Of a stretch of DNA of 64,000 bases, positions 4,310 through 50,687 are shown piece after piece. The stretch covers positions 2,108,001 through 2,172,000 of the forward strand of contig NZ_CP147917.1 of NCBI RefSeq assembly GCF_039645965.1, given 5' to 3'. A program made the position numbers and the translations under genes. Numbering within the stretch: position 1 is the first letter of the stretch; each line of letters starts with the position of its first letter. Source of the stretch: Sulfurimonas sp. HSL3-2. GTDB taxonomy: Bacteria; Campylobacterota; Campylobacteria; Campylobacterales; Sulfurimonadaceae. Under the pieces are notes generated by a model that was not told where the DNA came from, ran no database searches, and was given only the letters and a program-made list of their open reading frames with translations.

Positions 4310-4412
4310 TGACACTATTGTGTCAAACTTTAGTAGCCTCAGCGGCTCGAGCGAAGAATAAGGGACTTTTGTTCCTTATTCGGACTAATAAAATGGGGTT
4401 CCTTCATTTTAT
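4310..4412 (+). repeat. Structured CTTTAG element, copy A, in the leuC leader
   Basis: In order: a 6-bp hairpin (4310-4315 with 4320-4325, loop TATT), CTTTAG (4328-4333), a 4-bp hairpin AGCC/GGCT with loop TCAGC (4335-4347), and an 11-bp hairpin with one G-U pair and a TTTT loop (4356-4381). A further 8 to 11-bp hairpin follows at 4388-4412. The same architecture occurs at 23580-23640 and 50617-50684. A 20-codon serine-rich frame (ATG 4299 to TAA 4361) overlaps it; it starts very close to the -10 box and has no ribosome site, so I do not call it a gene. Confidence 0.65.
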
Positions 4413-4435
4413 AGAATAAAATTAAGGATTATATT

Positions 4436-23579: not shown

Positions 23580-23640
23580 GTTGGACAAAGTCCAACTTTA
23601 GCTCCTAAGCGGAGTGCTCTCGCGACTAGTCGCTCTTGAG
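23580..23640. repeat. Structured CTTTAG element, copy C
   Basis: GTTGGAC/GTCCAAC hairpin with an AAA loop (23580-23596), CTTTAG at 23596-23601, a CTCC/GGAG hairpin with loop TAAGC (23602-23614), and a GCGAC/GTCGC dyad (23622-23633) flanked by CTC and GAG. It fills the 93-base gap between two convergent genes and could act as their terminator. It is homologous in layout to 4310-4381 and 50617-50684. Confidence 0.65.
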
Positions 23641-50616: not shown

Positions 50617-50684
50617 TGCCTCAAAAGAGGCAAGCTTTAGTGCCATAGCGGTCAGCGTAGTAAACTGGGTTTTACTCAGTTTAC
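50617..50684. repeat. Structured CTTTAG element, copy B, between aroC and thrS
   Basis: TGCCTC/GAGGCA hairpin with an AAAA loop (50617-50632), CTTTAG (50635-50640), a short GCC/GGT hairpin with loop ATAGC (50642-50652), and an 11-bp hairpin with one G-U and a TTT loop (50660-50670 with 50674-50684). The last hairpin lies four bases past the aroC stop on the minus strand and could end that transcript. The rest of the 258-base gap (50430-50687) holds one TACATGTAA word and nothing else that I can name. Confidence 0.7.
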
Positions 50685-50687
50685 ATT

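Follow-up and report, generated by a model that had tools for sequence, protein, structure and literature searches.

The described systems closest to the element reported here are the GTAG REPs, with their BIME and REPIN arrangements, and their associated TnpA_REP (RAYT) proteins. PMC3733652 describes GTAG REPs as carrying the tag together with stems of 6-13 bp that include G-T pairs, as forming dimers and clusters, and as occupying gaps of the convergent and unidirectional kinds, within less than 20 bp of 3' ends. The same paper records degenerate GYAG and GYRG tags among REPs; its lists include Sulfurovum sp. NBC37-1, with repeats of both the GTAG and the CGTC type, and the epsilon division, with GTAG repeats. 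TnpA_REP recognises REPs as single strand and in a strand-specific manner (PMC8266576).

The element that we describe from Sulfurimonas sp. HSL3-2 resembles these systems in being extragenic and present in many copies, in having G-T pairs and a hairpin whose 5' foot bears a GTAG-like tag, in its position near 3' ends in convergent and unidirectional gaps, in its inverted pairs and tandem clusters, and probably in the recognition of one strand. It differs from GTAG REPs in its length and form (~74 nt with three hairpins, compared with a single hairpin of 20-40 bp), in its extra CTTTAG and NNAGC motifs, in its degenerate tag (GNAG/GNAA), in occurring mostly as single copies, in having no RAYT gene beside its copies, and in spanning several families of one order. 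We regard the element as working like a REP but do not claim membership of the GTAG REPs, because both a RAYT association and the short single-hairpin form were tested for and not found. CGTC-tagged REPs are, like the element, dispersed palindromes without a recognised transposase, but PMC3733652 gives them a CGTC tag, a single hairpin of 8-9 bp and a CCA-type tail.

The ends of IS200/IS605 elements, which use a Y1 transposase, have on one strand, like the element, subterminal hairpins with guide bases left unpaired, and the preference for the lagging-strand template that we observe is also reported for them in PMC6006769. Unlike them, the element neither carries nor is flanked by a Y1 gene and has no pair of left and right ends. 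Intergenic repeats of the BOX/ERIC type are modular and structured and occur in both orientations, and the element is like them by this general description alone. No earlier description of the element was found in the literature searched; judging from the PMC3733652 entries mentioned above, its third hairpin (H3) may be partly listed there already. With the element, a group in which few REP-like families have been described gains a large one, for which there is a clear consensus and a covariance model that works.

Copies of the element in the window

The window, by which we mean the whole stretch of 64,000 nucleotides that was analysed, has three gaps in which a preliminary description had seen a common ordered layout. 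All three read as described, and the core pattern CTTTAGN{2,3}CCNNAGCGG has three matches in the window against 0.01 expected in shuffles. Across the genome of the same organism the pattern has eight matches and its reversed control none. One of these eight (L001), which sits inside a signal-peptidase-like coding sequence, was rejected as a chance match. CTTTAG by itself is not over-represented (51 occurrences against 46 expected), so the signal lies in the ordered layout. The features of the three copies, scored where indicated by running the covariance model R1 with cmsearch, are given in Table 1.

Table 1. Positions of the three copies in the window and of the parts of copy 3
Feature	Position	Strand	Evidence
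Copy 3, full element, matching model R1 positions 1-71	50617..50687	+	cmsearch 85.2 bits, E 1.1e-16
Copy 3, H1, TGCCTC-AAAA-GAGGCA	50617..50632	+	sequence; H1 pairs covary in family
Copy 3, CTTTAG, unpaired conserved motif	50635..50640	+	
Copy 3, H2, small hairpin GCC-ATAGC-GGT, loop NNAGC	50642..50652	+	
Copy 3, CAGCGTA, the conserved NAGCGNA motif, 5' foot of H3	50653..50659	+	alignment A1
Copy 3, H3, GTAAACTGGGT-TTT-ACTCAGTTTAC, 11 bp, G-T at pair 9	50660..50684	+	sequence
Copy 1, upstream of leuC-like gene	4310..4384	+	53.3 bits, E 7.9e-10
Copy 2, degenerate relative next to 3' end of minus-strand purM	23580..23640	+	pattern match

In copy 3, CAGCGTA and the G that follows it together read GTAG, the REP tag. 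The stems of copy 1 are TGACAC/GTGTCA in H1 and GAATAAGGGAC/GTTCCTTATTC in H3, and copies 1 and 3 agree, as had been claimed, in an H3 of 11 bp with G-T at the ninth pair and a T-only loop. The further claim that the stems differ almost fully was overstated for H1, where TGACAC and TGCCTC are both of a common TGNCNC type, and held for GTTGGAC, which is a real outlier. Under model R1, positions 23583-23631 of copy 2 score only 12.7 bits (E 0.42), and this copy has no AGCGNA-H3 part. It is probably a decayed relative of the element, because the same purM gap in the congener G002 holds a recognisable copy; G007 has no counterpart in this gap.

Two other repeats were seen in the same DNA. A second dispersed repeat, CCTTCATTTTATAnAATAAAATTAAGGA, lies at window positions 4401-4428 and reaches to the ribosome-binding region immediately ahead of the leuC-like start, where it ends; pieces similar to it occur at several places in the genus, and also beside elements at loci L043 and L118. 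The palindrome TTACATGTAA occurs at 14 places in the window against 0.11 expected, including 720, 16787, 16800, 32583, 32603, 56171 and 56189, with some occurrences paired 13-20 bp apart, and the same word was found again in gaps of relatives and of genomes of family f10.

Fold, covariation and folded strand

The element is ~74 nt long and its single DNA strand folds into three hairpins, in the order H1, CTTTAG, H2 with its NNAGC loop, AGCGNA, H3 and then usually GTT. A consensus built from loci of the Sulfurimonas sp. HSL3-2 genome, its relatives and named genomes reads (H1, 5-6 bp, loop 3-4) AG CTTTAG T GCC-NNAGC-GGC NAGCGNA (H3, 9-11 bp) GTT, usually preceded by TC. H1 is of two types, the short stem of 5-6 bp and a stem of 10-11 bp around a GAAA-like loop. 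The first base of H3 is usually G, which gives GTAG at the foot; this tag is the commonest, with GCAG, GAAG, GAAA and GTAA also occurring. CTTTAG does not vary among the 30 seed sequences, themselves selected by a pattern that contains it, and variants (CTTCAG and others) are present among the model matches. In the head-to-head partner copy of the grpE-dnaK gap (L004), which the model scores, the H2 stem is inverted, reading GGC/GCC in place of GCC/GGC.

The stems covary both in the seed set and in a wider set of 91 distinct model matches, of which the wider carries more weight because the seed set was pre-filtered for stems. The share of paired cells is 97.2% for the seed set of 30 compared with 75.5% after shuffling, and double changes are seen in 13 of 18 pairs. 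In the wider set, whose alignment was fitted to the model and so leans towards it, 96.1% pair compared with 71.6% when shuffled and double changes occur in 16 of 18 pairs; none of 500 shuffles scored as high and slid controls fell far below. Eight of the nine modelled pairs of H3 change on both sides within the family. A compensated change can also be read at the orthologous leuC gap, where H1 is TGACAC/GTGTCA in the Sulfurimonas sp. HSL3-2 genome and TGATAC/GTATCA in G002. These alignments point to strong covariation in three helices, and bear out the earlier proposal of selection on a single-strand fold. An Rfam scan of the window returned tRNA only and a scan of copies 1 and 3 gave matches at chance level only, in agreement with the preliminary description, which had recognised no named RNA family.

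To determine which strand is folded we compared G·T with A·C pairs in H3, with the stems chosen by Watson-Crick pairs only. Departures in pairs 1-8 are G·T in 37 cases and A·C in six, and at pair 9 there are 56 copies with G·T and none with A·C. Since the opposite strand would carry C·A, this excess of G·T indicates that the plus strand is the folded one. Pair 9 is still G·T in 19 of the 28 copies that are antisense to both neighbours, which makes single-stranded DNA, or else a transcript that the element itself gives rise to, a better candidate than host mRNA. The ratio of G·T to A·C in pairs 1-8 is 24:0 for copies with a sense upstream gene and 7:4 for antisense copies (Fisher p 0.006, from copies that are not independent), and this weaker polarity could hint at some RNA-level effect on the element.

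Of 150 copies on eight chromosomes, 97 have their plus strand on the lagging-strand template (p 4e-4, a value inflated by the non-independence of orthologous copies), and the fraction is 0.60-0.75 in every one of the eight genomes. In these chromosomes the first contig begins at or beside a dnaA-like gene, which was taken as the origin, with mid-chromosome as the terminus; in G000 and G007 the motif used did not match and dnaA was assigned by protein-start resemblance. From the G·T/A·C polarity and the lagging-strand bias, we infer that one strand is recognised as folded single-stranded DNA.

Distribution, placement and turnover of copies

The covariance-model search that the preliminary description had proposed returned further copies, with 12 matches each in the Sulfurimonas sp. 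HSL3-2 genome and in G007; four copy-rich relatives have 46, 53, 43 and 41, and two family f10 genomes have 39 and 34. In a sample of the phylum, Campylobacterota, with counts per genome limited to 16, 38 of 298 genomes match, and these fall in four families of the order (f1, f10, f11 and f4). Copy number ranges from 0 to more than 30 within one family. The hosts are sulfur-oxidising Campylobacterota and relatives of these, and those identified by name include Sulfurimonas, Sulfuricurvum and Sulfurospirillum. Every g39 genome among those listed has at least eight matches, and g39 is presumably Sulfurospirillum, loci of which, by name, carry the element. In unrelated phyla the short pattern is matched without the remainder of the element, apparently by chance. 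The element was not found in the plasmid and phage collections searched, and to the extent of these searches it is chromosomal only. Two IMG/VR contigs (L358 and L359) contain the exact core pattern.

Around ~109 distinct copies, the neighbouring genes are oriented +/+ in 37 cases, -/- in 28, convergently in 19 and divergently in 10, as judged by simple ORF calling. A recount of sense to antisense copies gave 38:28 (binomial p 0.27), and the element shows no orientation bias to genes. The median distance is 11 nt to a facing stop codon and 26 nt to a facing start codon, and some copies seem to provide the stop codon themselves, for example that of rnhA in G250. At four loci (L016, L019, L020 and L152) the element is found in the P12 loop of the RNase P RNA gene (rnpB), as a tandem pair in L016 and an inverted pair in L020, which indicates that a folded insert is tolerated there; inverted pairs also occur in the grpE-dnaK gap. 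The element is worth masking or annotating in RNA predictions of such genomes, in rnpB, tRNA-side spacers and operon gaps. Inverted copies 2 kb apart (L223) were considered as the ends of an autonomous version; by eye, the interval is a DEAD-box-helicase-like gene, an ordinary neighbour.

Orthologous gaps differ in whether they hold a copy. The copy at 50617 is absent from the same aroC-side gap in the five congeners G002, G004, G005, G006 and G007, and that at 4310 is present in G002 (with an insert in the H2 loop), reduced to a remnant in G007, and absent from G004, G005 and G006. At the rnhA-rnc site the element is in G250 only and is missing from six relatives, in one of which, G389, the two genes overlap. 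Presence and absence also distinguish relatives in a gap beside tRNA genes, and further orthologous sites compared between G250, G389 and other relatives show presence/absence or partial deletion. A gain rather than a loss is clear only at the rnhA-rnc site. A same-scoring copy, G250:2683412, was tested as the source of this insertion and is not the donor. No target-site duplication was visible at the compared orthologous sites without the element and the consensus has no terminal inverted repeats; the insert ends are not sharp but vary, and flanking bases come along. Of the REP/MITE-like mobility originally suggested, the mobile REP-like part is supported, and a strict MITE is contradicted by the absence of terminal inverted repeats and target duplication. 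Tandem arrays have periods from 74 nt (six copies in G031, read directly) to ~129 nt. At one orthologous site with ~93% identical flanks (L271/L272), H3 is swapped as a block, which suggests that copies of the family convert one another. Near relatives alternate in having or lacking a copy and genomes hold many copies, which makes it possible to test how REPs without a flanking transposase spread.

Interpretation and search for a mobiliser

With moderate confidence, we interpret the element as a non-autonomous REP-like mobile repeat whose recognised form is one defined DNA strand, single-stranded and folded. The plus strand would be exposed during lagging-strand replication, and a trans-acting single-stranded DNA enzyme, for which a Y1 HUH protein of the TnpA_REP/IS200 type is the most plausible candidate, would recognise the hairpins together with CTTTAG and GNAG. 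This enzyme would then copy or join the element at a new intergenic site, and insertions elsewhere would be purged by selection, which would explain why copies stay close behind stop codons. In the RNA of host genes and operons, the element would probably be a tolerated hairpin, comparable to that in the P12 loop of RNase P RNA.

The preliminary description had also offered a 3'-end stabiliser or a regulatory RNA. Copies near stop codons and within apparent operons, the small number of divergent gaps, the frequent G-U pairs, the covarying stems and the absence of A·C from sense copies but not antisense ones would all suit a cis-acting structured RNA under RNA-level selection that stabilises mRNA 3' ends or serves as a processing site between operon genes. 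We nevertheless consider this unlikely, and neither function is upheld as the main role, because the element lies in both orientations to genes, with antisense copies nearly as many as sense (37 sense-sense to 28 antisense-antisense); antisense copies, whose transcript would carry C·A, retain the fixed G·T pair; and orthologous copies come and go between close species. The tandem and inverted clusters and the intergenic, chromosomal position (within the collections searched) would also fit a BIME-type site for a chromosomal protein such as gyrase, IHF or HU, the site being spread by recombination and maintained for its role in the nucleoid. A double-stranded binding site would not, however, be expected to show strand polarity or single-strand covariation, and the range in copy number from 0 to more than 30 inside one family also speaks against this possibility, which we regard as improbable. 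We give almost no credence to a folded single-strand recombination site of the integron attC type: it would share one-strand recognition of a fold and conserved unpaired bases, but is largely refuted by the missing core sites, as the consensus has no R''/R' pair (RYYYAAC ... GTTRRRY) and ends, by eye, in TCTGCC (5') and CGTT, and copies are single between housekeeping genes instead of forming cassette arrays.

Other observations weigh against the REP-like reading itself. The insert ends are blurred, the tag is GNA(G/A) and not strict GTAG, and the element is longer than a REP, with its three hairpins. No copy lies near any of 61 Y1_Tnp loci, and the presence of PF01797, matched in 105 of 200 genomes of the family, is not associated with copy number (Mann-Whitney p 0.15); several copy-rich genomes have no PF01797 match at all. 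The RAYT hypothesis is thus without support from flanking genes or copy-number association, and the enzyme that would move the element was not found among the Y1 genes examined. A tentative alternative to the REP-like repeat that we favour is a mobile single-stranded DNA element found in four families of the order, with its own three-hairpin architecture, whose transposase or nuclease would belong to neither the Y1 nor the RAYT family.

The Sulfurimonas sp. HSL3-2 genome has one PF01797 (Y1_Tnp) gene (L042 1450-2233), which is split over two overlapping frames and looks broken; its homologue in L190 has an open frame of ~270 aa. A 459-aa Y1_Tnp-like protein with a degenerate HUH motif (HYFEF, NYFEF) is encoded at L305 487-1866 and L313 1474-2853, adjoining a conserved 150-aa gene in two copy-rich genomes, and is possibly domesticated.
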